Assembly: GCF_016097555.1 (NCBI RefSeq)
Contig: NC_054699.1
Span: 62,001-126,000, forward strand
Length of the DNA stretch: 64,000 nt
Source: Gigantopelta aegis
Lineage: Eukaryota; Mollusca; Gastropoda; Neomphalida; Peltospiridae
Reading direction: 5' to 3'
The position numbers and the translations under genes are program-made. Below are positions 19,605 through 63,825 of the stretch, one piece after another. Positions within the stretch are counted from its first letter, which is position 1. Each line of letters begins with the position of its first letter. The notes under the pieces are model-generated. The model had not been told where the DNA came from, searched no databases, and saw only the letters and a list, made by a program, of their open reading frames with translations.

Positions 19605-19804
19605 NNNNNNNNNNNNNNNNNNNNNNNNNNNNNNNNNNNNNNNNNNNNNNNNNNNNNNNNNNNNNNNNNNNNNNNNNNNNNNNNNNNNNNNNNNNNNNNN
19701 NNNNNNNNNNNNNNNNNNNNNNNNNNNNNNNNNNNNNNNNNNNNNNNNNNNNNNNNNNNNNNNNNNNNNNNNNNNNNNNNNNNNNNNNNNNNNNNNNNNN
19801 NNNN
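19605..19804. other. Assembly gap (200 N)
   Basis: Exactly 200 unknown bases, a usual placeholder length, between exon C and a 23-bp satellite. True size unknown. Confidence 0.98.
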
Positions 19805-21133: not shown

Positions 21134-21623
21134 AGGCCCAGTCACACCGGGCTTGCAACCAGGTTACGACCTAGCTGCGACCGAAAAATGTTGCAATTGT
21201 GGGCAAATCGTACAACGAGCGTGCGACTGGTCGCAGAGGTTGTGGGTGATCGCCAGCAAAATCAGTCGCAGCAAGGTCGATGGTCATGTTCAAAACTTCT
21301 GACCTGCGATTCCAAATCATAAGAGGTTGCAGATAGGTCTTACATGGTCGTACCACCAGTCGTGCATGCTCGCACCACCAGTCGTGGATGATCGCGGGTC
21401 CCACAGTCGTACAACTGGTCGTGCCACTTGACAATTGGTGGTGCCACCTGTGATACGACCTCACGATCGGTAGTGCGACCAGTCACGACCTGTCCCGACT
21501 GGTTGCACGACCTTTACGATTGGTGGTACCACCTGTCTTTAGCTGCCTGAGACCAGTATATATGGAGCACTTCTGGGGATTCAGGTCACTCTCCACTACG
21601 ATGCCCGAAGAGGGAATATTGTT

Positions 21624-22145
21624 ATGCCACCAGGAAGACTCGAACTTATGTCAGTCCGGCTCCAGATGGAACAGCAACAACAGCTGGGTGCTGTAGCCGC
21701 AGCTGTACTTCTCCGACGAAGAAACCAGCGCATAGAGAGACGTCGGCGCCAGTACTGGGTGCGTCCCTGGATCGGGAGACGGTTATTGTACGGCAACTAT
21801 GCCAACCTGATAAAGGAACTGGAGAGGGAATCACAAGGCGATTTCACCAACTACATGCGCATGGAACCGCACATGTTCCACGAATTGCTTCACCGATTGT
21901 CGCCCCGTCTGACGAAGCAGGACACCAACTACCGACGTGCTCATGAACCAGGACTCAAGCTGGCTATCACCTTACGGCACTTTCTTCTTCTTGATTGCTG
22001 CTTGATCTGCCGATTCATCACCAGAATCCTGTGTTTCGGTTTCAGTTTCCCGGACGACATCATGTGCAGAGGTTACATCACTCTCTGGCTTTGGTTGCAT
22101 CCTTTTTCCACGCCCCTTCCCCTTCTTGGGAGGCATAGCGAGTGA
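21624..22145 (+). pseudogene. Harbinger (HARBI1-like) transposase, N-terminal fragment
   Basis: The 173-codon frame has about 120 residues of Harbinger nuclease N terminus: RRRRQYWVRPWIGRRLLYGN, MRMEPHMFHELLHRL, SPRLTKQDTNYRRA and PGLKLAITLRHF. The DDE catalytic domain that should follow is absent; after about 21983 the frame reads antisense through the second Harbinger gene. The element therefore cannot make an active nuclease. Start chosen at 21624 because it is the first ATG of the frame and gives a normal-length N terminus. Confidence 0.85.
21972..22136 (-). pseudogene. Harbinger second protein (Myb-like partner), N-terminal fragment
   Basis: On the - strand an ATG at 22136-22134 opens a 54-codon frame. 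It starts MPPKKGKGRGKRMQPKPESD, continues acidic (ETETETQDSGDESADQ), then KKKKVP and stop. A basic then acidic N terminus fits the DNA-binding partner protein that Harbinger elements encode beside the nuclease. The Myb-like domain is missing. It faces the transposase fragment, as expected after an internal deletion joining the two gene starts. Confidence 0.6.
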
Positions 22146-28300: not shown

Positions 28301-28321
28301 TTGTCATGTGTTCTTCTACAG

Positions 28322-28419
28322 TTGACGATGGCGCGGTGCTGGACGTTCAGTTTGACAAATTCTACCATCAGCCTCCAGACAGCTTTAACCCCATCATGAT
28401 CGAGCAGTCTCTCTTATAG
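28322..28419 (+). CDS. SPRYD7: SPRYD7 last coding exon D with stop
   Basis: The exon follows a GTTCTTCTACAG acceptor and reads VDDGAVLDVQFDKFYH, then QPPDSFNPIMIEQSLL and TAG at 28417-28419. Human SPRYD7 ends VDDSAILDCQFSEFYH...FEQQIF, so length and spacing to the stop agree. The first Val codon is split after its first base, which should come from exon C. About 60 bp upstream a long SINE-tail-derived satellite ends, so this acceptor sits just beyond repeat DNA. Confidence 0.95.
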
Positions 28420-28789
28420 ACCACACACTTCACCTCGCATGGGTGATCTCCCTTTCATGGGAATAGAGGTGAAAGGTCAACATACGACATCCTGAGGTTG
28501 GAGATTGGTGCTTTTAGTCATCTTGGGAAAGAAGTGATTTGATGCAGTCCAACTTACATTCTTAGGGAAATACCATTCGGAAGTGGGGGTGGGGGGCAAT
28601 TTGTGTTATATATATATACAGTGTCATACTTACAACACATAAAGTAAAATTGTATTTAAATTATGTATGAATAAGAAAATATAAGCAATTTGCTGCAGTC
28701 AACTTTACCCAGGAGGCATGGGTGGCCATGTGCCCTCCACGTTACCCTGTTAGTGTGCTGAGAAGGTGTCTGACATATCAGAAAACCTG
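28420..28789 (+). other. SPRYD7 3' UTR candidate
   Basis: Unique-looking sequence runs from the SPRYD7 stop to the start of an inverted-repeat element near 28790. No AATAAA was found; a variant CATAAA at 28638-28643 is the only nearby candidate poly(A) signal. A short TA run lies around 28608-28618. UTR status is inferred from position only. Confidence 0.4.
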
Positions 28790-28799
28790 GGCCTGGTTG

Positions 28800-29045
28800 T
28801 TCGAATTCCTGGATTAGCACTAACCCTGAGTTAAGTGCCTAACCCGAGTTAACTTTAATCACTGATTGAAAAATGTGTTGAAGGAATGTTGGTTAGCACT
28901 AACCACGAGTTAAATTTAATCACTGATTGAAAAATGCATTGTTTGAACATTGGTTAGCACTAACCATGAGTTAAATATATACCCTAACCCTGTGTTAAAG
29001 TTAAAGCAGCTCTGACCTGCGGGTAAATGTCTAACCAGTGATTAA
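28800..29045. repeat. Diverged about 56-60-bp repeats at left end of outer element
   Basis: Three to four units with GGTTAGCACTAACC and TTTAATCACTGATTGAAAAA. They are the inverse of the right-end 52-bp array. Confidence 0.7.
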
Positions 29046-29327
29046 GAGTGGCGAATTTGATTCCATTTGTATGTTTAGATGAGTTTTAAATGTAAAATTG
29101 TGCTGAAATAGAATATCGGCATCAATTACAGTGACGTCAAATTCCCATGAAATGTTTTTGAATAGATGGTTCATTAATTTGATTTGATTTTATTTTGGAT
29201 TGTGGGTAGTGGGAGGTTGGTCAAATTTGGGAAACACATCGATGTGTATGAACTGTCCTTTATTATTAAAAATTCTCCATTAAATAACAGTATGAATAAT
29301 GAAAAGAATCAGTTGTAAGACTGGTTA

Positions 29328-31843
29328 CCAGACGTTTCGTCCCCAAGTCAGTTCTCCCCAAGTTGGTTCAACCCCAACGAATAGGCAGTTCACTCCCAAC
29401 TATTTGTCAGTTCGTCCCCAACTATTAGTTAGTTGGCCTCCTCACTCATTATTATGTCAGATATTAAATATGGATGGTTTTGGTGGATATTGTTTTTTCA
29501 TTATACCATGAGGATCAAGAAAAAGGAACAGATCTAAGCTTAGTGTGTTAAATATTATAAGAAAAAATGTATGAACACCACAAATATCACAGTTAATACA
29601 AAAGGGATTTAATTAAATTGGTTTTAACGGTTAATCATGGAACTAAAATAAATTAGGTTGATGTTTTGATAATACCAAACAGTGCTTTGACCCACAGATG
29701 ATGGGGCCTCTAGGTGGTATTCACTTTGCCCGCCCTTTACTAGTGGGATTAACAAATGGGGTCAGTTTCGGTCATTAGTTCTGAAGCATCGAGAAGATAA
29801 TTACCATTAGAAAAAGCATACAGTGATTAAAGTTAACTATTAATATATGGTTTGGTCAGTCTCATTTTTTCATTTTATTTATTTATTTAATTATTTTATT
29901 TTATTTTTTCTTCTGGATCCGGGGATGGGAGAGAGTCCAGGGATGGGGGCGAGTCCAAGAACGGGGGAGAGTCCGGGGACGGGGGTGAGTCCAGGGACGG
30001 GGGTGAGTCCAGGGATGGGTGGCTGTCCAACTGAGTTGCTCCGGGTGATAGTTGATTTTTTTCTTCGTCTTCTTCTTCCTCCCCTTTTCTTAGTATTCAT
30101 TATTATAATTATGATCTATTATCATTAGTTTACTTAGTATTTTAGTCAAGTAATGTGTGCCTAGGGAAGGCTGGTCCAGACTGGGTGGATGCTTGCACAT
30201 TAGTTGGGTCTATATGACAATTTTTGTTTAATAGCATGCCTGACAACACAAAATTATAGTCTGTGGCAGGGGTACTGTTTCTGTGTCTTAGTTTGCTTGT
30301 TTTATTTCATTTTTATAAACCCATTTTAACATAAATACAGGCATGTTTATAAACTAATGTAATAAATGTATATTTTTAATATTAGGTTTCAGTCATGCTG
30401 AATGACCATCTGTTTCCCTCCAATTGTTTCTGGGTTCTTAAACACTAAAGGGCTTACAAATTTGTGGAGTGGGTGGCAGATGTCTTAACAACATATTTGT
30501 GTTATTTTCAACCTCTGGACCATGGATTTTGATTAATTTCAATCATTCGCTGACCTTAAAAACTTAAAGGGCATATAGTTAACAATAAAGTTTAATTGTT
30601 AATAATGAAATTAAGTAAACTTGTTTTCTCTTTCTCTTTGGACCAAATGCCTGCTCTAAAATGTGTCAGTAATTTACAAATGTGCAATAGCCTCCTATAT
30701 GTAGGCTGAAATAAATCTTCATCATACATGTAATGCAAATCATATGCACACATATTTTTGTCGAACAAGACTATTTTCATATTCTTTCTTTCCATCCACT
30801 GTTAAACTATGTCAGCTGTTATTAGGCATTCTTCATCACTACATACATGTAGATATAAAATTCAAATTGAACATTTTTATCAGTTACACTATCATACTTT
30901 TATAACATCAGTAGAATGCAGCAGACATTACACATCCGACTCCATTTGGGTCATAAATTCTCACGAGACGTGACAACCTACATGTAGGCTATCTTGTGCT
31001 TGCTGAACGCGTCTTACACTTTTGTCCACTATACAATGTCGTTCGAAATACTCATTTGTCAGATTTTCAAAATCTTAATTGTAATATTTTCCTGTTAGGT
31101 GACCCAAACCTCATTCTCCAAGAAAATAATGTTATATTCAAACATATAAGCGTACGAGACGGGTCTTGGAAACAATTCTCAAATTCGGGTAAAAAACAAT
31201 AGAGAACTTCGGGCAAAATGAGGTGGCTGGAACACTTAATCATGTACTTTCATTATTCTGCCAACAATTTTAGTTGTAATTCATGTAAACATGCGTGGCG
31301 ATTCATTTGTAACCCTATATAGCTGTTTAAAAGTAATGCTAATATGAATAAACGTTGTGATCTAAATTTGGACACTTTTGTTTAATTTGGGAAAAAACCC
31401 AGCGTGCCCCGGCCACTACAAAAATGGGAGCACGTTCGCCTGTGTATTCAAATCTGTCCACAACTTCATTATAAATAGTAAACGTTTTGACATTAATTAC
31501 CCATTCACATTCTTTCTCTTTTGACATCTAATCCTAAATAATGTGTAATCATGGTAAAAATAATAACCTATTCATACTCTTTACCTTCACTTCCTTCTAT
31601 TCTCCCTCTTTGTTAGTAAATTTGGTGGAAGTTATAACCATTGTTTTATTTTTATTGCTTGTAAACTATTCATATGTTGGGAGAGGCCTTAATATAGGTG
31701 AACGAACACCTGTTGGCCAATCCGCAGACCACTGCTGTTTTTGAATGGCCATAAATATTGTTTAAACCAAAGTGGGGACAAATTGTTAATGTCTTGGGGG
31801 CAAACTGGTGTGGGACGAACAGGCGTGGGTCGAAACGTCAGGA
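29328..31843. mobile_element. Inner inverted-repeat element
   Basis: Left CCAGACGTTTCGTCCCCAAG and inverted right CCTGACGTTTCGACCCACGC are similar. Subterminal CCCCAA/TTGGGG-rich short repeats occur at both ends. It is nested in the outer element. No transposase was seen; the interior is AT-rich. Superfamily not assigned. Confidence 0.45.
29917..30030. repeat. 18-bp GC-rich tandem repeat, 6 copies
   Basis: Units like GGGGACGGGGGTGAGTCC in an otherwise AT-rich region. Reads as an 18-bp periodic frame in both directions, but no gene features. Confidence 0.9.
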
Positions 31844-32342
31844 ATTCCTTTTCTTCTTTTTGCCCCAGGCCAGCCTTTTCTTTTCTTTTCTTTTTTCTTG
31901 GTGTATGTGTGTGGGGAAGTAGGGGTATTTTTTATTTGTTGCTGGGGGTTTTGGTTTTTTTTTAAATAAATATATTTTCCAGGGGAATATGATTCGAATT
32001 CCCATAAAAACTTTGCTCACTAGGCTAGGCCCCTATTTAATAACTGGGTCATTCTTCATCAAGTGCAATTTTTTTTAAGCCACAAAGATCTGCATTTTTT
32101 GGTTGTATGAAATGAGAAAACGATTTCTATACGTGTTCTAGAGCTGTGTTCTATGTTCTAGAGCTGTGTTCTAGAGCTGTACTTAACAACAGAAAGATGA
32201 TTAGGACACATTAATATACAGGATCTTAAACGGTTGACTACAGAACAAGACATTATGTAATGTGGTACCATCATTTTGGTACACACAATAAATAGAAAAT
32301 ATTTTTCCTTAATTTCACTTTAGGTAAATTTTTATCAAACGG

Positions 32343-32467
32343 CAGTGGCACAGAAAGCGATGGTGGCGGGCAAGATATTTTGCTTTTTATTTGCTTTATA
32401 ATAGTGTAAAAGTGTGTAAATATGAAAGTGTGCCCCCCACTTTTTGGCACCTTCCTACGCCAGTGAA
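32343..32467. mobile_element. Short MITE with CACTGGCGTAGG end
   Basis: Left GGCAGTGGCACAGAAAGC and inverted right CACTGGCGTAGGAAGGTGCC are similar. About 125 bp, with a GTGCCCCCCAC block. The same type of end is seen at 36781-36812. Confidence 0.45.
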
Positions 32468-32949
32468 TGGTATAATGTCCAAAATTAATATAGCTTTTTA
32501 AACAGAGCCATATGAATTCGTAATCATCACACAAACCAAAAAAAAAATCCAATAGCAATTAAATTTACATGAAAAATTTCTAAAAAAGAGAAAGAATTTA
32601 GATGAGTTTATTATTATTATAGGAACATGTAAAGTGAAATCATTTGAATACTGATGTCATTGAAATTAGAAACACATGTGAATGATAGAACGCATCTTTT
32701 TAGTCAATCCTCACTCCGTCCAAATAATTGTCTGTTCCATATTGATCAGACAAAGACGCTTAGTGTATATATATACATACATATATGTAACCAAAACCAA
32801 AACGATGATGCCACAATGTCCTGACATAAACCTTAAAGTTAAAAAGATATGTTTTCACAACTACCCTCCCCTGCTAGTTTCCGCCTTGTTGGTTTCACTA
32901 ATTGTCTCAATATTATACGCATCATAATCTACAATTATGTAATATCACC

Positions 32950-33640
32950 AGTTTGCTAACCCAGAGTTAAAAGTATGTTTCAGCAACATTTTGTTAATCA
33001 GTGATTAGCCAAGCCTGGGTTAAGGAATTTAACTCACAGTTAGTGTTAATCAGTGATTAGCCAAGCCTGGGTTAAGGAATTTAACTCACAGTTAGTGTTA
33101 ATCAGTGATTAGCCAAGCCTGGGTTAAGGATTTAACTCAAAGTGTTAATCAGGGATTAGCCAAGCCTGGGTTAAGGAATTTAACTCACAGTTAGTGTTAA
33201 TCAGTGATTAGCCAAGCCTGGGTTAAGGAATTTAACTCACAGTTAGTGTTAATCAGTGATTAGCCAAGCCTGGGTTAAGGATTTAACTCAAAGTGTTAAT
33301 CAGGGATTAGCCAAGCCTGGGTTAAGGAATTTAACTCACAGTTAGTGTTAATCAGTGATTAGCCAAGCCTGGGTTAAGGAATTTAACTCACAGTTAGTGT
33401 TAATCAGTGATTAGAGAAGCCTGGGTTAAGGAATGTAACTCACAGTTAGTGTTAATCAGGGATTAGCCAAGCCTGGGTTAAGGAATTTAACTCAGTTAGT
33501 GTTAATCAGGGATTAGCCAAGCCTGGGTTAAGGAATTTAACTCACAGTTAGTGTTAATCAGTGATTAGCCAAGCCTGGGTTAAGGAATTTAACTCACAGT
33601 TAGTGTTAATCAGTGATTAAATTAATCCAGGTTTCGAACA
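32950..33640. repeat. 52-bp tandem repeat, about 13 copies
   Basis: Units contain GTTAATCAGTGATTAGCCAA and GCCTGGGTTAAGGAATTTAA. Forms the right arm of the outer inverted-repeat element. Confidence 0.95.
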
Positions 33641-40930: not shown

Positions 40931-41395
40931 ATCCTTTACATCATGCTCGATGCTATGAGGAGAGAATCCTTACTGGTCTGTTTGAGCTATAGAGCTGGAC
41001 AATGAAATCTGATGACTGATGAAAGACTCCTTGACATTTGTCACATAAAATGAACAGCACTTTTTGATATGTTATAATGGAATCCTTTACACTGTCCAAT
41101 GCTTTTCGACTGTACAATGAAATTGACTGATGGGACAAAGGGTTCCTCTTCTCTGCATTCAGTGCTATAAGACTACAGTGAAATTGACTGATGGGACGAA
41201 CGGTTCCTATGCATTCAGTGCTATAAGACTACAGTGAAATTGACTGATGGGACGAACGGTTCCTATGCATTCAGTGCTATAAGACTACAGTGAAATTGAC
41301 TGATGGGACGAAGGGTTCATCTTTACATTCAGTACTGTAAGACTACAATGAAATTGACTGATGGGACGAAGGGTTCCTCTTCTCTGCATTCAGTG
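40930..41395 (-). repeat. 55-60-bp array in presumed PCID2 3' UTR
   Basis: At least five good units and further degenerate ones occupy the first 300-450 bp after the PCID2 stop. Each unit contains, on the - strand, GTCTTATAGCACTGAATG, which is the last two codons, the stop and following bases of PCID2. The array therefore appears to have been seeded from the end of the coding region. A possible ATTAAA poly(A) signal (- strand) lies at 40886-40891. Confidence 0.7.
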
Positions 41396-41485
41396 CTATA
41401 AGACTGAAGACAACACTGGGAATGGATTCTGCTTACTGACAACAAGTTTCTGGTGCTGGTGAGATATGTAGCCTTTTATTTTGTT
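41396..41485 (-). CDS. PCID2: PCID2 last coding exon with stop
   Basis: On the - strand a CTTCTGTTTCAG acceptor is followed in phase 0 by [20 protein letters not shown] and PFPVLSSVL, then TAG at 41398-41396. Human PCID2 ends [18 protein letters not shown] and PFPPLSTVC, so the C terminus is complete and of normal length. A 74-bp intronic array begins 8 bp outside the acceptor. A 55-60-bp array made partly of the stop-codon region follows the exon. Confidence 0.95.
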
Positions 41486-41493
41486 CTGAAACA

Positions 41494-42860
41494 GAAGGAC
41501 AAAGGTTCATGAGTCAAGTGTTTTATAGAAGAGGTGACTGTTTTAAATGGCTAGAGAAATGGTGTTTAATGAACAGAGGTTCATGAGTCAAGTGTTTTAT
41601 AGACATGATGACTGTTTTAAATGGCTAGAGAAGTGGTGTTTAATGAACAAAGGTTCATGACTCGTGTTTTATAGAAGTGATGAATGTTTTAAATGGCTAG
41701 AGAAGTGGTGTTTAATTAACAAAGGTTCATGAGTCATGTGTTTTATAGAAGAGATGACTGTTTTAAATGGCTAGAGAAGTGGTGTTTAACGAACAAAGGT
41801 TCATAAGTCAAGTGTTTTATAGAAGAGATGAATGTTTTAAATGGCTAGAGAAGTGGTGTTTAACGAACAAAGGTTCATGAGTCAAGTGTTTTATAGAAGA
41901 GATGACTGTTTTAAATGGCTAGAGAAGTGGTGTTTAACGAACAAAGGTTCATGAGTCAAGTGTTTTATAGAAGAGATGACTGTTTTAAATGGCTAGAGAA
42001 GTGGTGTTTAACGAACAAAGGTTCATGAGTCAAGTGTTTTATAGAAGAGATGACTGTTTTAAATGGTTAGAGAAGTGGTGTTTAATTAACAAAGGTTCAT
42101 GAGTCAAGTGTTTTATAGAAGAGATGACTGTTTTAAATGGTTAGAGAAGTGGTGTTTAATTAACAAAGGTTCATGAGTCAAGTGTTTTATAGAAGAGATG
42201 ACTGTTTTAAATGGCTAGAGGAGTGGTGTTTAACGAACAAAGGTTCATGAGTCAAGTGTTTTATAGAAGAGATGACTGTTTTAAATGGCTAGAGAAGTGG
42301 TGTTTAACGAACAAAGGTTCATGAGTCAAGTGTTTTATAGAAGAGATGACTGTTTTAAATGGCTAGAGAAGTGGTGTTTAACGAACAAAGGTTCATGAGT
42401 CAAGTGTTTTATAGAAGAGATGACTGTTTTAAATGGCTAGAGGAGTGGTGTTTAACGAACAAAGGTTCATGAGTCAAGTGTTTTATAGAAGAGATGACTG
42501 TTTTAAATGGCTAGAGAAGTGGTGTTTAACGAACAAAGGTTCATGAGTCAAGTGTTTTATAGAAGAGATGACTGTTTTAAATGGCTAGAGAAGTGGTGTT
42601 TAACGAACAAAGGTTCATCAGTCAAGTGTTTTATAGAAGAGATGACTGTTTTAAATGGCTAGAGAAGTGGTGTTTAACGAACAAAGGTTCATGAGTCAAG
42701 TGTTTTATAGAAGAGATGACTGTTTTAAATGGCTAGAGAAGTGGTGTTTAACGAACAAAGGTTCATAAGTCAAGTGTTTTATAGAAGAGATGAATGTTTT
42801 AAATGGCTAGAGAAGTGGTGTTTAATGAACAAAGGTTCATGAGTCTGTTTTATAGAAGAG
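41494..42860. repeat. 74-bp tandem repeat, about 18 copies, in last PCID2 intron
   Basis: Units contain AACAAAGGTTCATGAGTCAA, GTGTTTTATAGAAGAGATGA and GCTAGAGAAGTGGTGTTTAA. On the - strand the terminal unit supplies CCTTTGTCCTTC just before the last exon acceptor, so part of the polypyrimidine tract is repeat-derived or the repeat was seeded there. Confidence 0.95.
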
Positions 42861-42924
42861 GTGTTTAATGTTTAGCCAGTGTCTGTAAGGAAAGGAGTAT
42901 GATCAAGCCTTTTAGGACGACTCT

Positions 42925-47195: not shown

Positions 47196-47565
47196 CCTAG
47201 TAATAGTACATGACACACCACCAAGTTGTTCCTACATGTGAGGTTTGATAGTCCTGTATGCATCTGTATGCAAGATATGGTCTGGACAAGGATTTACTGT
47301 TACATGTAGTAGACCATGAAAAGTAGGTCACAGTGACCTAGTAATAGTACGTGACACACCAACATTCCAAGTTGTCCCTACATCTGAGGTTTGATGGACC
47401 TGTATGTAAGATATGTCCGGTCCATGATTTACTGTTATGTGCAGTAGATCATGAAAAGTAGGTTACACTGACCTAGTAAACGTACCCGACACACTGCCAT
47501 CCCAAGTTGTTCCTACATGTGAGGTTTGATGGTCCTGTATGCAAGATATGGTCCAGACAAGAAAA
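47190..47565. repeat. About 140-150-bp repeat, 2.5 copies
   Basis: Units share GTGACCTAGTAATAGTAC, AAGTTGTTCCTACATGTGAG, GTTTGATGGTCCTGTATG and ATTTACTGTTA. The last copy ends in GGACGGACGGACAATG. Confidence 0.8.
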
Positions 47566-47636
47566 AGTACGTATGGACGGACGGACAATGTCATATCATA
47601 ATAGGACCCATCCTAGACGGGCGAATAAAAAGTTAC

Positions 47637-47693
47637 CTCATAAATAAGATTTGCAATAATGCACTGTGTTTCATCATCGTCAATGTCTTCCAT
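47637..47693 (-). CDS. PCID2: PCID2 coding exon (57 bp), true copy of an amplified exon
   Basis: On the - strand the exon follows TTTTTTTTCAG and ends at a GTAACT donor. It encodes MEDIDDDETQCIIANLIYE in phase 0 at both ends. Human PCID2 has VEDVDIDEVQCILANLIY. This copy is chosen because it alone keeps the full 3' end (LIYE) and a donor that joins in frame to the last exon. Thirteen further copies of the acceptor plus the first 16 codons or so lie upstream of it in transcript order (47694-48496), which makes the actual acceptor choice uncertain. Confidence 0.92.
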
Positions 47694-48496
47694 CTGAAAA
47701 AAAACAAGATTTGCAATAATGCACTGTGTTTCATCATCGTCAATGTCTTCCATCTGAAAAAAAACAAGATTTGCAATAATGCACTGTGTTTCATCATCGT
47801 CAATGTCTTCCATCTGAAAAAAAAAAGATTTGCAATAATGCACTGTGTTTCATCATCGTCAATGTCGTCCATCTGAAAAAAACAAGATTTGCAATAATGC
47901 ACTGTGTTTCATCATCGTCAATGTCTTCCATCTGAAAAAAAAACAAGATTTGCAATAATGCACTGTGTTTCATCATCGTCAATGTCTTCCATCTGAAAAA
48001 ACCAAGATTTGCAATAATGCACTGTGTTTCATCATCGTCAATGTCTTCCATCTGAAAAAAAAAAACATAACAAGATTTGCAATAATGCACTGTGTTTCAT
48101 CATCGTCAATGTCTTCCATCTGAAAAACAAAAACATAACAAGATTTGCAATAATGCACTGTGTTTCATCATCGTCAATGTCTTCCATCTGAAAAAAACCA
48201 AGATTTGCAATAATGCACTGTGTTTCACCATCGTCAATGTCTTCCATCTGAAAAAAAAAAAGATTTGCAATAATGCACTGTGTTTCATCAACGTCAATGT
48301 CTTCCATCTGAAAAAACCAAGATTTGCAATAATGCACTGTTTTTCATCATCGTCAATGTCTTCCATTTGAAAAAACCAAGATTTGCAATAATGCACTGTG
48401 TTTCATCATCGTCAATGTCTTCCATCTGAAAAAAAAAAACATAACAAGATTTGCAATAATGCACTGTGTTTCATCATCGTCAATGTCTTCCATCTG
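47694..48496 (-). repeat. Tandem array of a PCID2 splice acceptor plus partial exon, 13 extra copies
   Basis: Each unit, on the - strand, has a T-run, CAG, then ATGGAAGACATTGACGATG and ACACAGTGCATTATTGC. This is the acceptor and about the first 47 bases of the 57-bp PCID2 exon. The exon end with LIYE and its GTAACT donor occur only in the true copy. Spacings between successive ATG positions are 60, 60, 59, 59, 61, 59, 68, 68, 60, 60, 59, 59 and 68. Only the nearest two extra acceptors are clearly in frame and open to the true exon. Confidence 0.95.
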
Positions 48497-48519
48497 AAAA
48501 AAACAACATAATGAGAAGG

Positions 48520-49140
48520 AGTCTACTGACCACATTTATTTTAAATCAGTAACTGGACTTGCTTAGTAACTGGACTTGCTTAGTAACTGGAATTGCTTTG
48601 ATTAGATATTCAGGGCTCGAAATACTGCCGGCACGACCAGGTTTGGCCAGTCAACATCACTATGGACATAAGATATTTCTGCCTGCTTTCCCATTGGACT
48701 ATATTTTGCATTTAATTGCCTGCTTATCACCTAAAAAAATTTTGAGCACAAAATTCAAATTTACCCTCTTTTAATAAAACTTGTAATAACTCCAAACTCG
48801 TTATGCCAAAATCAGTTGGGTCCCAAAGTGGACGGTATAACGAGGTTTGACTGTATACATGTACCGTATCATCAAGATTGGTTCAGCAGATTTTGATTTG
48901 GTCTGGTAGAAGTTTTAGCTTACCAGACCTAGTGTCCAGCAAGAAATTCTGCTCAATTTGACCCGTGATATCAATATACAAAAAGTGGCCACTTTTCAGC
49001 ATAGAATCTGCCAGTTGTGCTCTAACAAAGCAAAAGTTACAAACCTGGTAAGGTTCATCTAAACCTTTACTATTATATTTATTATTGGAGATCACCAGCA
49101 TGTACATTCTGGCAATTTACTTCACAAAATGAGGACATTT
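48520..49140. other. PCID2 intron with transposon ends
   Basis: CAGGGCTCGAAATACTGCCG at about 48612 is a hAT-like terminus without a partner. GTATAACGAGGTTTGACTGTA (split as GTATAACGAGG and TTTGACTGTA, near 48835-48856) is the right end of a pogo/Tc1-type MITE. Otherwise no feature was recognised. Confidence 0.45.
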
Positions 49141-51227: not shown

Positions 51228-51297
51228 CTCCATTAGTTTGAGAACTGTTGTGAACTCATCAATGGGCAAGAGATGCGTCTTGTTGTTGATGAGATAT
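51228..51297 (-). CDS. PCID2: PCID2 coding exon (70 bp)
   Basis: On the - strand the exon runs from a TTTTTTCTCTTACAG acceptor to a GTAAAG donor. After completing the split Val codon it encodes YLINNKTHLLPIDEFTTVLK and LME. The human counterpart is [20 protein letters not shown] followed by MQ. The exon ends in phase 0. Its polypyrimidine tract overlaps the T/C-rich 3' tail of a SINE inserted on the same strand just upstream (51305-51590). Confidence 0.92.
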
Positions 51298-51304
51298 CTG
51301 TAAG

Positions 51305-51598
51305 AGAAAAAAGGAATGTTATATTTAACACGGCTACCTGGTGTCTGACATATGGTGAGTGTAACACTAGGGTGAATGCCAGAACCCAGTGCCATCAACA
51401 CGGACTACTTGAACCAAACAGCAGCAAGGGAACTTTTATATAGACTTCCATCACAAACAGTACAGCACATATTAGGGACTTTAATAAAGGACTGGCTGGG
51501 ATGAGAAAAAACCCATTGGGTCCACTGAGGAGATTTGATTCTATGACCCATCGCTCTTCAGGCAAGCACTCTACCACTGGGCTACACCCTATTTCTCT
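51305..51598 (-). mobile_element. SINE on the PCID2 strand, abutting the exon acceptor
   Basis: On the - strand the head reads GTAGCCCAGTGGTAGAGTGC (A-box TRGCNNARYGG present), then GGTCATAGAATCAAATC in the B-box position, GGACCCAATGGGTTTTTTCT and CACCATATGTCAGACACC. The tail reads GTTAAATATAACATTCC then TTTTTTCTC, leading directly to TTACAG and the 70-bp PCID2 exon. Its head is also the start of the 88-bp satellite. Confidence 0.75.
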
Positions 51599-54500
51599 GT
51601 ATGGTTTAACAAGCCACTAACATCGTAAGGTATTAACTGCTACACATTAACAAGCACTCTACCACTGGGCTACACCCTATTTCTCTGTATGGTTTAACAA
51701 GCCACTAACATCGTAAGGTATTAACTGCTACACATTAACAAGCATTCTACCACTGGGTTACACCCTATTTCTCTGTATGGTTTAACAAGCCACTAACATC
51801 GTACGGTATTAACTGCTACACATTAACAAGCATTCTACCACTGGGTTACACCCTATTTCTCTGTATGGTTTAACAAGCCACTAACATCGTAAGGTATTAA
51901 CTGCTACACATTAACAAGCACTCTACCACTGGGCTACACCCTATTTCTCTGTATGGTTTAACAAGCCACTAACATCGTACAGTATTAACTGCTACACATT
52001 AACAAGCATTCTACCACTGGGTTACACCCTATTTCTCTGTATGGTTTAACAAGCCACTAACATCGTACGGTATTAACTGCTACACATTAACAAGCACTCT
52101 ACCACTGGGCTACACCCTATTTCTCTGTATGGTTTAACAAGCCACTAACATCGTAAGGTACTAACTGCTACACATTAACAAGCACTCTACCACTGGGTTA
52201 CACCCTATTTCTCTGTATGGTTTAACAAGCCACTAACATCGTAAGGTATTAACTGCTACACATTAACAAGCATTCTACCACTGGGTTACACCCTATTTCT
52301 CTGTATGGTTTAACAAGCCACTAACATCGTACGGTATTAACTGCTACACATTAACAAGCACTCTACCACTGGGCTACACCCTATTTCTCTGTATGGTTTA
52401 ACAAGCCACTAACATCGTAAGGTATTAACTGCTACACATTAACAAGCACTCTACCACTGGGTTACACCCTATTTCTCTGTATGGTTTAACAAGCCACTAA
52501 CATCGTAAGGTATTAACTCTACACATTAACAAGCATTCTACCACTGGGTTACACCCTATTTCTCTGTATGGTTTAACAAGCCACTAACATCGTAAGGTAT
52601 TAACTGCTACACATTAACAAGCCACTAACATCGTAAGGTATTAACTGCTACACATTAACAAGCACTCTACCACTGGGCTACACCCTATTTCTCTGTATGG
52701 TTTAACAAGCCACTAACATCGTAAGGTATTAACTGCTACACATTAACAAGCACTCTACCACTGGGCTACACCCTATTTCTCTGTATGGTTTAACAAGCCA
52801 CTAACATCGTAAGGTATTAACTGCTACACATTAACAAGCATTCTACCACTGGGTTACACCCTATTTCTCTGTATGGTTTAACAAGCCACTAACATCGTAA
52901 GGTATTAACTGCTACACATTAACAAGCCACTAACATCGTAAGGTATTAACTGCTACACATTAACAAGCACTCTACCACTGGGCTACACCCTATTTCTCTG
53001 TATGGTTTAACAAGCCACTAACATCGTAAGGTAGTAACTGCTACACATTAACAAGCCACTAACATCGTAAGGTATTAACTGCTACACATTAACAAGCACT
53101 CTACCACTGGGCTACACCCTATTTCTCTGTATGGTTTAACAAGCCACTAACATCGTAAGGTATTAACTGCTACACATTAACAAGCACTCTACCACTGGGC
53201 TACACCCTATTTCTCTGTATGGTTTAACAAGCCACTAACATCGTAAGGTATTAACTGCTACACATTAACAAGCACTCTACCACTGGGCTACACCCTATTT
53301 CTCTGTATGGTTTAACAAGCCACTAACATCGTAAGGTATTAACTGCTACACATTAACAAGCACTTTACCACTGGGCTACACCCTATTTCTCTGTATGGTT
53401 TAACAAGCCACTAACATCGTAAGGTATTAACTGCTACACATTAACAAGCCACTAACATCGTAAGGTATTAACTGCTACACATTAACAAGCACTCTACCAC
53501 TGGGCTACACCCTATTTCTCTCTATGGTTTAACAAGCCACTAACATCGTAAGGTATTAACTGCTACACATTAACAAGCACTCTACCACTGGGCTACACCC
53601 TATTTCTCTGTATGGTTTAACAAGCCACTAACATCGTAAGGTATTAACTGCTACACATTAACAAGCACTCTACCACTGGGCTACACCCTATTTCTCTGTA
53701 TGGTTTAACAAGCCACTAACATCGTAAGGTATTAACTGCTACACATTAACAAGCACTCTACCACTGGGCTACACCCTATTTCTCTCTATGGTTTAACAAG
53801 CCACTAACATCGTAAGGTATTAACTGCTACACATTAACAAGCACTCTACCACTGGGCTACACCCTATTTCTCTGTATGGTTTAACAAGCCACTAACATTG
53901 TAAGGTATTAACTGCTACACATTAACAAGCCACTAACATCGTAAGGTATTAACTGCTACACATTAACAAGCACTCTACCACTGGGCTACACCCTATTTCT
54001 CTGTATGGTTTAACAAGCCACTAACATCGTAAGGTATTAACTGCTACACATTAACAAGCACTCTACCACTGGGCTACACCCTATTTCTCTGTATGGTTTA
54101 ACAAGCCACTAACATCGTAAGGTATTAACTGCTACACATTAACAAGCACTCTACCACTGGGCTACACCCTATTTCTCTGTATGGTTTAACAAGCCACTAA
54201 CATCGTAAGGTATTAACTGCTACACATTAACAAGCATTCTACCACTGGGCTACACCCTATTTCTCTGTATGGTTTAACAAGCCACTAACATCGTAAGGTA
54301 TTAACTGCTACACATTAACAAGCACTCTACCACTGGGCTACACCCTATTTCTCTGTATGGTTTAACAAGCCACTAACATCGTAAGGTATTAACTGCTACA
54401 CATTAACAAGCACTCTACCACTGGGCTACACCCTATTTCTCTGTATGGTTTAACAAGCCACTAACATCGTAAGGTATTAACTGCTACACATTAACAAGCA

Positions 54501-57500
54501 CTCTACCACTGGGCTACACCCTATTTCTCTGTATGGTTTAACAAGCCACTAACATCGTAAGGTATTAACTGCTACACATTAACAAGCATTCTACCACTGG
54601 GTTACACCCTATTTCTCTGTATGGTTTAACAAGCCACTAACATCGTACGGTATTAACTGCTACACATTAACAAGCACTCTACCACTGGGCTACACCCTAT
54701 TTCTCTGTATGGTTTAACAAGCCACTAACATCGTAAGGTATTAACTGCTACACATTAACAAGCATTCTACCACTGGGTTACACCCTATTTCTCTGTATGG
54801 TTTAACAAGCCACTAACATCGTAAGGTATTAACTGCTACACATTAACAAGCCACTAACATCGTAAGGTATTAACTGCTACACATTAACAAGCACTCTACC
54901 ACTGGGCTACACCCTATTTCTCTGTATGGTTTAACAAGCCACTAACATCGTAAGGTAGTAACTGCTACACATTAACAAGCCACTAACATCGTAAGGTATT
55001 AACTGCTACACATTAACAAGCACTCTACCACTGGGCTACACCCTATTTCTCTGTATGGTTTAACAAGCCACTAACATCGTAAGGTATTAACTGCTACACA
55101 TTAACAAGCATTCTACCACTGGGTTACACCCTATTTCTCTGTATGGTTTAACAAGCCACTAACATCGTAAGGTATTAACTGCTACACATTAACAAGCCAC
55201 TAACATCGTAAGGTATTAACTGCTACACATAAACAAGCACTCTACCACTGGGCTACACCCTATTTCTCTGTATGGTTTAACAAGCCACTAACATCGTAAG
55301 GTAGTAACTGCTACACATTAACAAGCCACTAACATCGTAAGGTATTAACTGCTACACATTAACAAGCACTCTACCACTGGGCTACACCCTATTTCTCTGT
55401 ATGGTTTAACAAGCCACTAACATCGTAAGGTATTAACTGCTACACATTAACAAGCACTCTACCACTGGGCTACACCCTATTTCTCTGTATGGTTTAACAA
55501 GCCACTAACATCGTAAGGTATTAACTGCTACACATTAACAAGCACTCTACCACTGGGCTACACCCTATTTCTCTGTATGGTTTAACAAGCCACTAACATC
55601 GTAAGGTATTAACTGCTACACATTAACAAGCACTCTACCACTGGGCTACACCCTATTTCTCTGTATGGTTTAACAAGCCACTAACATCGTAAGGTATTAA
55701 CTGCTACACATTAACAAGCACTTTACCACTGGGCTACACCCTATTTCTCTGTATGGTTTAACAAGCCACTAACATCGTAAGGTATTAACTGCTACACATT
55801 AACAAGCCACTAACATCGTAAGGTATTAACTGCTACACATTAACAAGCACTCTACCACTGGGCTACACCCTATTTCTCTCTATGGTTTAACAAGCCACTA
55901 ACATCGTAAGGTATTAACTGCTACACATTAACAAGCACTCTACCACTGGGCTACACCCTATTTCTCTGTATGGTTTAACAAGCCACTAACATCGTAAGGT
56001 ATTAACTGCTACACATTAACAAGCACTCTACCACTGGGCTACACCCTATTTCTCTGTATGGTTTAACAAGCCACTAACATCGTAAGGTATTAACTGCTAC
56101 ACATTAACAAGCACTCTACCACTGGGCTACACCCTATTTCTCTCTATGGTTTAACAAGCCACTAACATCGTAAGGTATTAACTGCTACACATTAACAAGC
56201 ACTCTACCACTGGGCTACACCCTATTTCTCTGTATGGTTTAACAAGCCACTAACATTGTAAGGTATTAACTGCTACACATTAACAAGCCACTAACATCGT
56301 AAGGTATTAACTGCTACACATTAACAAGCACTCTACCACTGGGCTACACCCTATTTCTCTGTATGGTTTAACAAGCCACTAACATCGTAAGGTATTAACT
56401 GCTACACATTAACAAGCACTCTACCACTGGGCTACACCCTATTTCTCTGTATGGTTTAACAAGCCACTAACATCGTAAGGTATTAACTGCTACACATTAA
56501 CAAGCACTCTACCACTGGGCTACACCCTATTTCTCTGTATGGTTTAACAAGCCACTAACATCGTAAGGTATTAACTGCTACACATTAACAAGCATTCTAC
56601 CACTGGGCTACACCCTATTTCTCTGTATGGTTTAACAAGCCACTAACATCGTAAGGTATTAACTGCTACACATTAACAAGCACTCTACCACTGGGCTACA
56701 CCCTATTTCTCTGTATGGTTTAACAAGCCACTAACATCGTAAGGTATTAACTGCTACACATTAACAAGCACTCTACCACTGGGCTACACCCTATTTCTCT
56801 GTATGGTTTAACAAGCCACTAACATCGTAAGGTATTAACTGCTACACATTAACAAGCACTCTACCACTGGGCTACACCCTATTTCTCTGTATGGTTTAAC
56901 AAGCCACTAACATCGTAAGGTATTAACTGCTACACATTAACAAGCATTCTACCACTGGGTTACACCCTATTTCTCTGTATGGTTTAACAAGCCACTAACA
57001 TCGTACGGTATTAACTGCTACACATTAACAAGCACTCTACCACTGGGCTACACCCTATTTCTCTGTATGGTTTAACAAGCCACTAACATCGTAAGGTATT
57101 AACTGCTACACATTAACAAGCATTCTACCACTGGGTTACACCCTATTTCTCTGTATGGTTTAACAAGCCACTAACATCGTAAGGTATTAACTGCTACACA
57201 TTAACAAGCCACTAACATCGTAAGGTATTAACTGCTACACATTAACAAGCACTCTACCACTGGGCTACACCCTATTTCTCTGTATGGTTTAACAAGCCAC
57301 TAACATCGTAAGGTAGTAACTGCTACACATTAACAAGCCACTAACATCGTAAGGTATTAACTGCTACACATTAACAAGCACTCTACCACTGGGCTACACC
57401 CTATTTCTCTGTATGGTTTAACAAGCCACTAACATCGTAAGGTATTAACTGCTACACATTAACAAGCATTCTACCACTGGGTTACACCCTATTTCTCTGT

Positions 57501-60500
57501 ATGGTTTAACAAGCCACTAACATCGTAAGGTATTAACTGCTACACATTAACAAGCCACTAACATCGTAAGGTATTAACTGCTACACATAAACAAGCACTC
57601 TACCACTGGGCTACACCCTATTTCTCTGTATGGTTTAACAAGCCACTAACATCGTAAGGTAGTAACTGCTACACATTAACAAGCCACTAACATCGTAAGG
57701 TATTAACTGCTACACATTAACAAGCACTCTACCACTGGGCTACACCCTATTTCTCTGTATGGTTTAACAAGCCACTAACATCGTAAGGTATTAACTGCTA
57801 CACATTAACAAGCACTCTACCACTGGGCTACACCCTATTTCTCTGTATGGTTTAACAAGCCACTAACATCGTAAGGTATTAACTGCTACACATTAACAAG
57901 CACTCTACCACTGGGCTACACCCTATTTCTCTGTATGGTTTAACAAGCCACTAACATCGTAAGGTATTAACTGCTACACATTAACAAGCACTCTACCACT
58001 GGGCTACACCCTATTTCTCTGTATGGTTTAACAAGCCACTAACATCGTAAGGTATTAACTGCTACACATTAACAAGCCACTAACATCGTAAGGTATTAAC
58101 TGCTACACATTAACAAGCACTCTACCACTGGGCTACACCCTATTTCTCTCTATGGTTTAACAAGCCACTAACATCGTAAGGTATTAACTGCTACACATTA
58201 ACAAGCACTCTACCACTGGGCTACACCCTATTTCTCTGTATGGTTTAACAAGCCACTAACATCGTAAGGTATTAACTGCTACACATTAACAAGCACTCTA
58301 CCACTGGGCTACACCCTATTTCTCTGTATGGTTTAACAAGCCACTAACATCGTAAGGTATTAACTGCTACACATTAACAAGCACTCTACCACTGGGCTAC
58401 ACCCTATTTCTCTCTATGGTTTAACAAGCCACTAACATCGTAAGGTATTAACTGCTACACATTAACAAGCACTCTACCACTGGGCTACACACTATTTCTC
58501 TGTATGGTTTAACAAGCCACTAACATTGTAAGGTATTAACTGCTACACATTAACAAGCCACTAACATCGTAAGGTATTAACTGCTACACATTAACAAGCA
58601 CTCTACCACTGGGCTACACCCTATTTCTCTGTATGGTTTAACAAGCCACTAACATCGTAAGGTATTAACTGCTACACATTAACAAGCACTCTACCACTGG
58701 GCTACACCCTATTTCTCTGTATGGTTTAACAAGCCACTAACATCGTAAGGTATTAACTGCTACACATTAACAAGCACTCTACCACTGGGCTACACCCTAT
58801 TTCTCTGTATGGTTTAACAAGCCACTAACATCGTAAGGTATTAACTGCTACACATTAACAAGCATTCTACCACTGGGCTACACCCTATTTCTCTGTATGG
58901 TTTAACAAGCCACTAACATCGTAAGGTATTAACTGCTACACATTAACAAGCACTCTACCACTGGGCTACACCCTATTTCTCTGTATGGTTTAACAAGCCA
59001 CTAACATCGTAAGGTATTAACTGCTACACATTAACAAGCACTCTACCACTGGGCTACACCCTATTTCTCTGTATGGTTTAACAAGCCACTAACATCGTAA
59101 GGTATTAACTGCTACACATTAACAAGCCACTAACATCGTAAGGTATTAACTGCTACACATTAACAAGCCACTAACATCGTAAGGTATTAAGTGCTACACA
59201 TTAACAAGCACTCTACCACTGGGCTACACCCTATTTCTCTCTATGGTTTAACAAGCCACTAACATCGTAAGGTATTAACTGCTACACATTAACAAGCACT
59301 CTACCACTGGGCTACACCCTATTTCTCTGTATGGTTTAACAAGCCACTAACATCGTAAGGTATTAACTGCTACACATTAACAAGCACTCTACCACTGGGC
59401 TACACCCTATTTCTCTGTATGGTTTAACAAGCCACTAACATCGTAAGGTATTAACTGCTACACATTAACAAGCATTCTACCACTGGGTTACACCCTATTT
59501 CTCTGTATGGTTTAACAAGCCACTAACATCGTAAGGTATTAACTGCTACACATTAACAAGCCACTAACATCGTAAGGTATTAACTGCTACACATTAACAA
59601 GCACTCTACCACTGGGCTACACCCTATTTCTCTGTATGGTTTAACAAGCCACTAACATCGTAAGGTAGTAACTGCTACACATTAACAAGCCACTAACATC
59701 GTAAGGTATTAACTGCTTCACATTAACAAGCACTCTACCACTGGGCTACACCCTATTTCTCTGTATGGTTTAACAAGCCACTAACATCGTAAGGTATTAA
59801 CTGCTACACATTAACAAGCACTCTACCACTGGGCTACACCCTATTTCTCTGTATGGTTTAACAAGCCACTAACATCGTAAGGTATTAACTGCTACACATT
59901 AACAAGCACTCTACCACTGGGCTACACCCTATTTCTCTGTATGGTTTAACAAGCCACTAACATCGTAAGGTATTAACTGCTACACATTAACAAGCACTCT
60001 ACCACTGGGCTACACCCTATTTCTCTGTATGGTTTAACAAGCCACTAACATCGTAAGGTATTAACTGCTACACATTAACAAGCCACTAACATCGTAAGGT
60101 ATTAACTGCTACACATTAACAAGCACTCTACCACTGGGCTACACCCTATTTCTCTCTATGGTTTAACAAGCCACTAACATCGTAAGGTATTAACTGCTAC
60201 ACATTAACAAGCACTCTACCACTGGGCTACACCCTATTTCTCTGTATGGTTTAACAAGCCACTAACATCGTAAGGTATTAACTGCTACACATTAACAAGC
60301 ACTCTACCACTGGGCTACACCCTATTTCTCTGTATGGTTTAACAAGCCACTAACATCGTAAGGTATTAACTGCTACACATTAACAAGCACTCTACCACTG
60401 GGCTACACCCTATTTCTCTCTATGGTTTAACAAGCCACTAACATCGTAAGGTATTAACTGCTACACATTAACAAGCACTCTACCACTGGGCTACACCCTA

Positions 60501-61760
60501 TTTCTCTGTATGGTTTAACAAGCCACTAACATTGTAAGGTATTAACTGCTACACATTAACAAGCCACTAACATCGTAAGGTATTAACTGCTACACATTAA
60601 CAAGCACTCTACCACTGGGCTACACCCTATTTCTCTGTATGGTTTAACAAGCCACTAACATCGTAAGGTATTAACTGCTACACATTAACAAGCACTCTAC
60701 CACTGGGCTACACCCTATTTCTCTGTATGGTTTAACAAGCCACTAACATCGTAAGGTATTAACTGCTACACATTAACAAGCACTCTACCACTGGGCTACA
60801 CCCTATTTCTCTGTATGGTTTAACAAGCCACTAACATCGTAAGGTATTAACTGCTACACATTAACAAGCATTCTACCACTGGGCTACACCCTATTTCTCT
60901 GTATGGTTTAACAAGCCACTAACATCGTAAGGTATTAACTGCTACACATTAACAAGCACTCTACCACTGGGCTACACCCTATTTCTCTGTATGGTTTAAC
61001 AAGCCACTAACATCGTAAGGTATTAACTGCTACACATTAACAAGCACTCTACCACTGGGCTACACCCTATTTCTCTGTATGGTTTAACAAGCCACTAACA
61101 TCGTAAGGTATTAACTGCTACACATTAACAAGCCACTAACATCGTAAGGTATTAACTGCTACACATTAACAAGCCACTAACATCGTAAGGTATTAAGTGC
61201 TACACATTAACAAGCACTCTACCACTGGGCTACACCCTATTTCTCTCTATGGTTTAACAAGCCACTAACATCGTAAGGTATTAACTGCTACACATTAACA
61301 AGCACTCTACCACTGGGCTACACCCTATTTCTCTGTATGGTTTAACAAGCCACTAACATCGTAAGTATTAACTGCTACACATTAACAAGCACTCTACCAC
61401 TGGGCTACACCCTATTTCTCTGTATGGTTTAACAAGCCACTAACATCGTAAGGTATTAACTGCTACACATTATCACTCTACCACTGGGCTACACTATTTC
61501 TCTGTATGGTTTAACAAGCCACTAACATCGTAAGGTATTAACTGCTACACATTAACAAGCCACTAACATCGTAAGGTATTAACTGCTACACATTAACAAG
61601 CCACTAACATCGTAAGGTATTAACTGCTACACATTAACAAGCCACTAACATCGTAAGGTATTAACTACACCCTATTTCTCTGTATGCTTTAACAAGCGTA
61701 AGGTATTAACACTAACATCGTAAGGTATTAACTGCTACACATTAACAATCACTCTACCAC
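51562..61760. repeat. 88-bp satellite (about 110 units) with higher-order repeats
   Basis: The main unit is 47 bp (AACAAGCACTCTACCACTGG, GCTACACCCTATTTCTCTGT, ATGGTTT) plus 41 bp (AACAAGCCACTAACATCGTA, AGGTATTAACTGCTACACAT, T). Extra 41-bp half units occur at intervals. The 47-bp half is the SINE tRNA head inverted. A rare variant TAACATTGTA at 53896, 56254, 58524 and 60530 marks higher-order copies of 2358, 2270 and 2006 bp. Confidence 0.97.
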
Positions 61761-62150
61761 TGTGCTACACCCTAACAAGCACTTTCTCTGTATGCTTAAA
61801 GCAACATGCCACTTAACATCGTAACACATGTATTTACTGCAACGCATTAACAAGCCACTAACATCGCAACACAAGGTATTAACTGCTACACATGTCCCCT
61901 TAACAAGCATGTCCCTTAAAGCATGCATGTCCCCTTAAGGTATTAACTGTCCCCTACACATTTAACAAGCCACTAACATCGTAAGGTATTAAGTGCTACA
62001 CATTAACAAGCACTCTTAGAGTACTGCTTAAAGCAACACATGTCCCCTTAAAGCAACGCATGTCCCCTTAAAGCAACGCATGTCCCCTTAAAGCAACGCA
62101 TGTCCCCTTAAAGCAATGCATGTCCCCTTAAAGCAATGCATGTCCCCTAT
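61760..62150. repeat. Degenerate satellite edge and 21-bp repeat
   Basis: Scrambled pieces of the 88-bp unit mixed with CCCCTTAAAGCAACGCATGT, which then runs as a 21-bp repeat about six times (62030-62150). The edge shows short rearranged fragments rather than clean units. Confidence 0.85.
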
Positions 62151-62404: not shown

Positions 62405-62935
62405 AAACAATATGTGTGACAGACAGACACAGACAGAGAGAGATAAAACCTGTGAATAAAGCTGGGACTTACACCTTGTTAAAAGACACAGACAGACAGA
62501 CAGACACACAGACAGACACACAGACAGACAGAGACAAAACCTGTGAATAAAGCTGGGACATACACTTTGTTAAAAGACACAGACAGACAGACAGACAGAC
62601 ACACACACAGACAGACACACAGACAGAGAGAGATAAAACCTGTGAATAAAGCTGGGACTTACACTTTGTTAAAAGACACAGACAGACAGACAGACACACA
62701 GACAGACAGACAGAGACAAAACCTGTGAATAAAGCTGGGACATACACTTTGTTAAAAGACACAGACAGACAGACAGACACACAGACAGACACACACAGAC
62801 ACACAGACAGACACACAGACAGACAGAGACAAAACCTGTGAATAAAGCTGGGACATACACTTTGTTAAAAGACACAGGCAGACAGACAGACAGACACACA
62901 CACAGACAGAGACAAAACCTTTGAATAAAGCTGGG
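62405..62935. repeat. About 90-100-bp array containing copies of the PCID2 exon donor
   Basis: Five units alternate (ACAG)n/(ACACAG)n tracts with AACCTGTGAATAAAGCTGGG and ACTTACACTTTGTTAAAAGA. On the - strand each has TTTTAACAAAGT followed by GTAAGT (two units) or GTATGT (three units). This is nearly the end of the 126-bp PCID2 exon and its donor (TTTTCAAGAAAGT, GTAAGT). Confidence 0.9.
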
Positions 62936-62941
62936 ACTTAC

Positions 62942-63067
62942 ACTTTCTTGAAAAGGTTTCTGAATGTGATCACTTTGAGCTTCTCGAGAATGAGATAGAT
63001 TCCACACTTGATGAAGAATGCCTCGTTCTTCTCTAGAGACTCGTTCAGCTGGAGAAGGTTGCCCGAA
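62942..63067 (-). CDS. PCID2: PCID2 coding exon (PCI domain helices)
   Basis: On the - strand, a GCATTTCAG acceptor is followed by one base finishing a codon. The exon then reads [39 protein letters not shown] and KK plus two bases of Val. The donor is GTAAGT. Human PCID2 has [20 protein letters not shown] and CGIFLILEKLKIITYRNLF. Phase 2 at the 3' end fits the next exon, which begins with A to give GTA (Val). Immediately downstream the exon edge and donor are echoed in an intronic repeat array. Confidence 0.95.
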
Positions 63068-63183: not shown

Positions 63184-63825
63184 CCTTTCATGTGGAAATA
63201 TTAGAGGTGTGCGGTATTACCGGTATGCCGAATACCACACACAGAACACACACACAGACAGACAGAGACAAAACCTTTGAATAAAGCTGGGACCACGAGT
63301 TTTTTCTGTCGTGGTACGTACCGGTATGTTTTGTACTGTACCGATATACTTCAACACTTTCCATGTGGAAATATTAGAGGTGTGCGGTATTACCGGTATG
63401 CCGAATACCACGAGTTTTTTCTGTCGTGGTACGTACCGGTATGTTTTGTACTGTACCGATATACTTCAACACTTTCCATGTGGAAATATTAGAGGTGTGC
63501 GGTATTACCGGTATGCCGAATACCACGAGTTTTTTCTGTCGTGGTACGTACCGGTATGTTTTGTACTGTACCGATATACTTCAACACTTTCCATGTGGAA
63601 ATATTAGAGGTGTGCGGTATTACCGGTATGCCGAATACCACGAGTTTTTTCTGTCGTGGTACGTACCGGTATGTTTTGTACTGTACCGATATACTTCAAC
63701 ACTTTCCATGTGGAAATATTAGAGGTGTGCGGTATTACCGGTATGCCGAATACCACGAGTTTTTTCTGTCGTGGTACGTACCGGTATGTTTTGTACTGTA
63801 CCGATATACTTCAACACTTTCCATG
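63184..63825. repeat. 115-bp tandem repeat, 5 copies
   Basis: Units contain TTAGAGGTGTGCGGTATTAC, CGGTATGCCGAATACCACGA, GTCGTGGTACGTACCGGTAT and TACTTCAACACTTTCCATG. AGAGGTGTGCGGTA resembles the end of some hAT-like MITEs. The first unit carries an extra 55 bp or so (63239-63293). Identical overlapping open frames of 98-105 codons here are repeat artefacts. Confidence 0.93.

Follow-up and report, generated by a model that had tools for sequence, protein, structure and literature searches.

A 14-unit tandem array of splice acceptors at a PCID2 exon that resembles the mirages of lancelet genes

PCID2 and its tandem arrays

The window, that is, the whole stretch of 64,000 nucleotides analysed here, contains on its minus strand the last four coding exons (A–D) of PCID2, a part of the TREX-2 mRNA-export complex. 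Joined in the order A-B-C-D, these exons encode 113 residues without a frameshift, 111 of which are covered by a match to human PCID2, the best solved relative (E 1.1e-47), and the Pfam PCI family was recognized on the 71 residues of exons B–D (35.6 bits; cut-off, 22). Each of the four exons has intact codons, phases and real splice sites, and the real exon C survives at the edge of a tandem array (Table 1). As far as can be judged from its sequence, the PCID2 gene here probably works.

Table 1 Positions of the PCID2 exons, of the arrays that overlap or adjoin them and of the copied splice sites (window coordinates)
Feature	Position	Strand	Description
Exon A	62942-63067	minus	donor GTAAGT at 62941
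Donor array	62419-62955	minus	6 donors; each copied donor follows a degenerate version of the end of exon A
Donors	62941 (real), 62858, 62745, 62662, 62563, 62472		GTAAGT, GTATGT, GTATGT, GTAAGT, GTATGT and GTAAGT, respectively
Exon B	51228-51297	minus	donor GTAAAG; upstream of the array; closest array edge 266 bp off
Unique intron sequence above the acceptor array	48512-48560	minus	CTCAT of the distal unit at its lower end
Acceptor array	47642-48511	minus	14 units, each of a T-tract, CAG and the initial 48 bp of exon C (TRF and unit list)
Exon starts, distal part	48493, 48425, 48366 (CAA), 48307, 48247, 48187, 48119
Exon starts, proximal part	48051, 47992, 47931, 47872, 47813, 47753, 47693 (real)
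Exon C, real copy	47637-47693	minus	57 bp, MEDIDDDETQCIIANLIYE; donor GTAACT from 47636
Branch-region array	41499-42860	minus	18.5 x 74 bp; lower edge 14 bp short of the start of exon D
Exon D, last coding exon	41396-41485	minus	terminates with TAG
Stop-codon/3′ UTR array	41113-41405	minus	5.0 units of ~56 bp each

Besides the acceptor array at exon C, PCID2 contains further arrays at a donor, a branch region and the stop codon, which the preliminary description leaves unmentioned and which make the locus richer than it suggests. Thus, the donor of exon A has been multiplied within a TGTC-rich repeat into three GTAAGT and three GTATGT sites, and any of the five copied donors, if used, would end the protein after 42 of the 113 modelled residues. 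By blastn, a 48-bp piece of the donor unit (96% identical) was also found at 63246-63293 in the upstream intron, beside a 115-bp array, and a 49-bp piece of the unit of that 115-bp array lies next to it at 63186-63234. In the last intron, both branch candidates (at 25 and 29 nt) belong to the branch-like word CTTGACTCAT. This word was counted 13 times from 41486 to 42920, and the array found there likely covers the branch region; the acceptor-like sequence CACTTCTCTAG also recurs in most of its 74-bp units. Finally, the array at the end of the gene starts within the final codons and has carried copies of the PCID2 stop codon into the 3′ UTR, the end of the reading frame being present four times as TCTTATAG (the real one included) and once as TCTTACAG.

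The surroundings are similarly rich in repeats: minisatellites, taken as merged TRF arrays with units of 10 bp or more, occupy 37,598 of the 64,000 bases (58.7%) in 40 merged arrays, and a 10.2-kb array with an 88-bp unit (51563-61797) takes up most of the A–B intron. A gap of exactly 200 N at 19605-19804 directly precedes a 23-bp array that starts at 19805. Pfam matched none of the seven single open frames in the window and none of the six frames of 28300-33000. Six-frame translations of five regions (30 members) gave two families, both weak (best E, 0.017), and the 27 members of five further regions, one of which includes arrays, gave weak matches to five families, namely SpdB (E 0.00014) and TPK_catalytic (0.0058), with two members each, and three more at 0.019–0.043. 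No second clear gene was found in the DNA covered by these Pfam scans, which reached up to 62956 on the plus strand and passed over several short inter-array gaps. They are blind to short exons: the five further regions took in exon B of PCID2 and nearly the whole of exon A, and yet PCI was not matched there; Rfam likewise gave no match across the window at gathering scores. On the plus strand, an open frame of 200 residues (21543-22142) matched no Pfam family; we take it to resemble a Harbinger-type transposase.

Anatomy of the acceptor array

The acceptor array was delimited by TRF at 47642-48503 with a period of 59, 14.1 copies and a score of 1329, and a second TRF row with a period of 374 reached 48511. 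Its 14 units comprise 13 decoys and the real exon C. On the minus strand, its units carry exon starts of the form ATGGAAGACATTGACGATGATGAAACACAGTGCATTATTGCAAATCTT, each preceded by a T-tract and by CAG, which is replaced by CAA in the unit at 48366 only. The 13 spacings between units are 59 bp (five times), 60 bp (four times), 61 bp (once) and 68 bp (three times). Although 52 of the 57 bp of exon C lie inside the array, only the first 48 bases have been copied, and the final 9 bp, ATTTATGAG, are confined to the real copy. The preliminary description had reported a 57-bp exon start repeated 14 times upstream of the one copy that keeps a donor. TRF and the unit list bear out the tandem array, with its T-tract, CAG and exon start, but place 13 units upstream in addition to the real one and reduce the copied part to 48 of the 57 bp; the statement about the donor was correct, since the single donor GT at 47636 adjoins the lowest unit only.

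Indeed, a word search for GT[AG]AG, GTATGT and GTAA detected no donor word between 47637 and 48520, so that the decoys should only lengthen exon C and not form exons of their own. The acceptor units thus differ from cassette or mutually exclusive exons, in which every copy has its own donor. Across the 14 units, only four substitutions were counted at 672 exonic positions; all four change an amino acid and all are in decoys (the units at 48366, 48307, 48247 and 47872), and 10 of the 14 units are free of substitutions. Small as this number is, it would suit copies on which no coding duty rests. So few differences among 14 copies are not explained by chance, and the array, to judge by its units, is either young or has been kept uniform through exchange.

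The 374-bp period raised the possibility that units had been duplicated in blocks. No clear block duplication emerged, as the leaders of the units match exactly in one of seven pairs at a lag of 6, in one of eight at a lag of 5 and in one of 12 at a lag of 1. No other copies of the acceptor, branch or stop units were detected within the 64-kb window by blastn at E 1e-3. Four scans with exact repeat words of collections of genome contigs and viral contigs, neither of them devoted to animals, gave no hit. On its lower side, the acceptor array is adjoined by a 135-bp repeat with AGGTCACAGTGACCT at 47264-47561, possibly of a kind seen in mollusc genomes, and a similar stretch starts at 47188.

Reading frames, branch points and acceptor choice

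Translation in frame revealed that the real acceptor at 47693 yields the normal C-terminus of PCID2. The decoys at +60 and +120 are likewise in frame; they insert 20 or 40 residues and still reach the normal end, reading MEDIDDDETQCIIANLVFFQ, just as had been proposed. Ten of the other 11 decoys, including the CAA unit, run into a stop inside the lengthened exon, and the remaining one, at 47872, is read out of frame into the last exon to give a wrong C-terminus. The earlier view that the more distal acceptors shift the frame was therefore right in effect, although +426 and +732, being divisible by three, keep the frame in length and lead to a stop all the same. A PCID2 of variable length, put forward there as a possibility, could come from only two of the 13 decoys, as the other 11 give a premature stop or an abnormal C-terminus. 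The +60 and +120 acceptors may, on rare occasions, yield a PCID2 longer by 20 or 40 residues, and RNA spliced at the remaining decoys is probably decayed.

In all 14 units, 12–15 of the 20 bases that directly precede the exon copy, counting CAG, are pyrimidines, in keeping with the near-identical 3′ splice sites of the preliminary description. The sites are, however, not equivalent: one carries CAA, one alone has a full AG-free branch motif, and only the most proximal unit adjoins the donor. The most distal unit has the full AG-free yTnAy motif in the form of CTCAT, the A of which lies 19 nt upstream of the exon copy. The AG-free stretch of the other 13 units contains ATTAT, accompanied in three of them by GTTAT; their yTnAy words are TTGAC at 46–55 nt, each followed by one AG, and in one unit also TTGAT at 41 nt, again with one AG after it. 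CTCAT, located at the lower end of the unique intron sequence above the array, is the likely ancestral branch point.

In the scanning model, the first AG past the branch point is chosen (PMC1431707). Easy use of the proximal acceptor is disfavoured by this model because only the distal unit has the full AG-free motif; the model would favour the distal unit, which is the worst one for the protein, adding 800 nt and a stop. The intact appearance of the gene suggests that the proximal unit is used nonetheless, and its use would therefore need a branch point within copied coding sequence. Presumably, U1 at the sole donor (47636) and U2AF at the nearest T-tract and AG would together define the 57-nt exon C, and through this exon definition 47693 would serve as the principal acceptor. 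What is likely the ancestral branch region would now be ~800 nt farther upstream of 47693, so that the branch point of this acceptor should sit in the preceding unit; the simplest candidate would be the A of ATTAT, which lies 24 nt upstream of the exon within the coding sequence that was copied. It is possible that more than one acceptor is in use.

Two further arguments about the decoys were rejected. That so many acceptors must break splicing is countered by the same intron itself: when one loose rule was applied to the 3534-bp B–C intron, 27 acceptor-like sites were counted, 14 of them outside the array. Looping-out of the decoys by RNA structure found no favour either, as the 931-nt strand gave a z of -1.41 and 3 of 20 shuffles folded equally well.

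Mirages, related systems and alternative readings

Minisatellite-like tandem duplications of exon–intron boundaries have been described as mirages in lancelet genes, namely Adh3, the globins BflGb6 and BflGb9, TnC and PGBD5 (PMC3087553, PMC3902484). Among the open-access literature matches listed, this name for such repeats occurred in the lancelet papers only. RT-PCR suggests that regular splicing is kept in the lancelet mirages, and the copied signals could be cryptic sites; their length is unstable, even somatically, and they have been proposed as raw material or a model for intron gain (PMC3087553). In PGBD5, splice sites lie in 60- and 108-bp units, with 2 or 7 and 3 or 6 copies, respectively, in two sequence versions, and one annotation turns the copies into an exon, which the authors omitted (PMC3902484).

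The PCID2 array shares structural features with these repeats. Its unit runs across an exon–intron boundary of a coding gene, tandem copies with splice-site sequence and a partial exon stand beside the real exon, and the latter, with its donor and open frame, is intact at the array edge. Moreover, in PCID2 as in the lancelet genes (PMC3087553, PMC3902484), either side of an exon can be hit, and the unit sizes are similar (60 and 108 bp in PGBD5; 10–72 bp in Adh3). Unlike the lancelet mirages, the PCID2 array has 14 units, whereas BflGb6 has 6 and 3 and PGBD5 has 2 or 7 and 3 or 6, and the gene combines donor, acceptor, branch-region and stop-codon arrays, of which the cited passages on lancelets mention neither of the last two. 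By its structure, the PCID2 array thus fits a mirage, a known though little-known kind. Nor is it isolated, as it both fits that kind and lies in an array-rich gene and window. Should the species prove not to be a lancelet, mirages would be more widespread among animals than the papers found report.

Other systems are related less closely. In human segmental duplications, variable internal tandem repeats are likewise minisatellites at borders that alter splicing or intron boundaries, and 66% of the intron changes caused by tandem repeats, which include those at exon–intron borders, are accompanied by transcripts that keep the repeat in the exon, so that clean splicing cannot be taken for granted; these repeats, however, average ~30 bp and ~4 copies in recent paralogs, and the passages cited do not describe copying of splice signals (PMC2812944). 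Intron gain by tandem genomic duplication likewise copies splice signals as raw material for a new intron (PMC3087553), whereas a copy of the PCID2 acceptor unit, having no donor word, cannot alone create one. The locus would provide a test of the proposal in that paper that new introns draw their raw material from repeats of this kind. NAGNAG tandem acceptors (PMC3250501) similarly compete upstream of one exon, but they are 3 nt apart, while those of PCID2 are 59–68 nt apart and have a T-tract in each unit.

On a wider scale, the locus would show that exons are able to persist where more than half of the local DNA is minisatellite. To our knowledge, acceptor choice among near-identical sites has mostly been studied with hand-made duplications. 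Lang and Spritz (1983) and Reed and Maniatis (1986) reportedly used globin genes with hand-made duplicated splice sites and asked which copy the spliceosome takes. Those constructs had few copies, compared with the 14 natural units of PCID2, and the question of copy choice is the same. PCID2 poses it in nature, with 13 AG acceptors, 6 donors and a branch region of 18.5 units, and some of the units are marked by substitutions.

We consider it probable, at roughly three in four, that the acceptor array is a young minisatellite containing the exon–intron boundary of a probably working PCID2, that is, a mirage of the lancelet type. Its growth would have begun with a tandem duplication of the tail of the B–C intron (T-tract and CAG) together with 48 bp of exon C. 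The word TTATG is common to the exon C end, ATTTATGAG, and to the intron before the array, CATTATGTTG, and such microhomology is a plausible participant in the initial duplication; slippage or unequal exchange would then have raised the number of units to 14.

Compatible with this reading, and entertained only tentatively, is the idea that the growth of arrays is drawn to exon borders or halted there, multiplying signals systematically. Four of the eight exon edges (seven splice edges and the stop codon), belonging to three of the four exons, lie within 15 bp of an array edge, exon C being counted by its donor side. Circular shifts reached four near edges in 0.034% of cases, free random placement did so in 0.035% for edges (P ~0.0004, post hoc) and 0.115% for exons, and placement with exons mostly outside arrays gave 0.03% for edges and 0.21% for exons; the last null allows no more than 20 bp of any exon to lie inside an array and is itself violated by exon C, with 52 of its 57 bp inside. 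These figures come from one gene and from a 15-bp cut set after seeing the data; with cuts of 10, 20, 30 and 50 bp, the edge values under free random placement were 1.8%, 0.06%, 0.28% and 1.6%. Selection against arrays in exons could also produce the excess, as exons that resist the growth of arrays would alone gather array edges. The fuller proposal, that minisatellites seeded at or stopped by exon borders multiply the donors, branch regions, acceptors and stop codons of ordinary genes, and that the spliceosome goes on working by choosing whichever copy is closest to the real exon and recruiting branch points from copied coding sequence, is a shade more doubtful still.

Regular use of the tandem acceptors to make PCID2 of varying length, with 20 or 40 residues more, is unlikely. 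The two nearest decoys are in-frame, exact copies of the exonic part with T-tracts like the real one and the normal C-terminus open to them, and they are free of substitutions, as are most units anyway; furthermore, the human border repeats often give both forms (PMC2812944). Nevertheless, the outcome at 11 of the 13 decoys, the undisturbed splicing reported for lancelet mirages (PMC3087553, PMC3902484) and the position of the insert, which falls in a conserved C-terminal region aligned there to human PCID2 without gaps, all argue against this use. Still less likely is a dying or dead PCID2 broken by its arrays, with another locus doing the work. The high share of minisatellite in the window, the involvement of donor, branch region, acceptor and stop codon, and the stop at one and the same residue from all five copied donors would agree with such decay, but not the four exons, whose codons, phases and real splice sites are undamaged, or the well-conserved protein. 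An assembly artefact, in which the copies were piled up by the assembler, is very improbable, for although the 200-N gap directly beside the array at 19805 indicates that repeats troubled the assembly there, gaps of this kind are typical of scaffolding with long-read contigs, and the reads behind such contigs would bridge 860 bp; the acceptor units, moreover, differ in leader and substitutions and lie ~28 kb from the gap.
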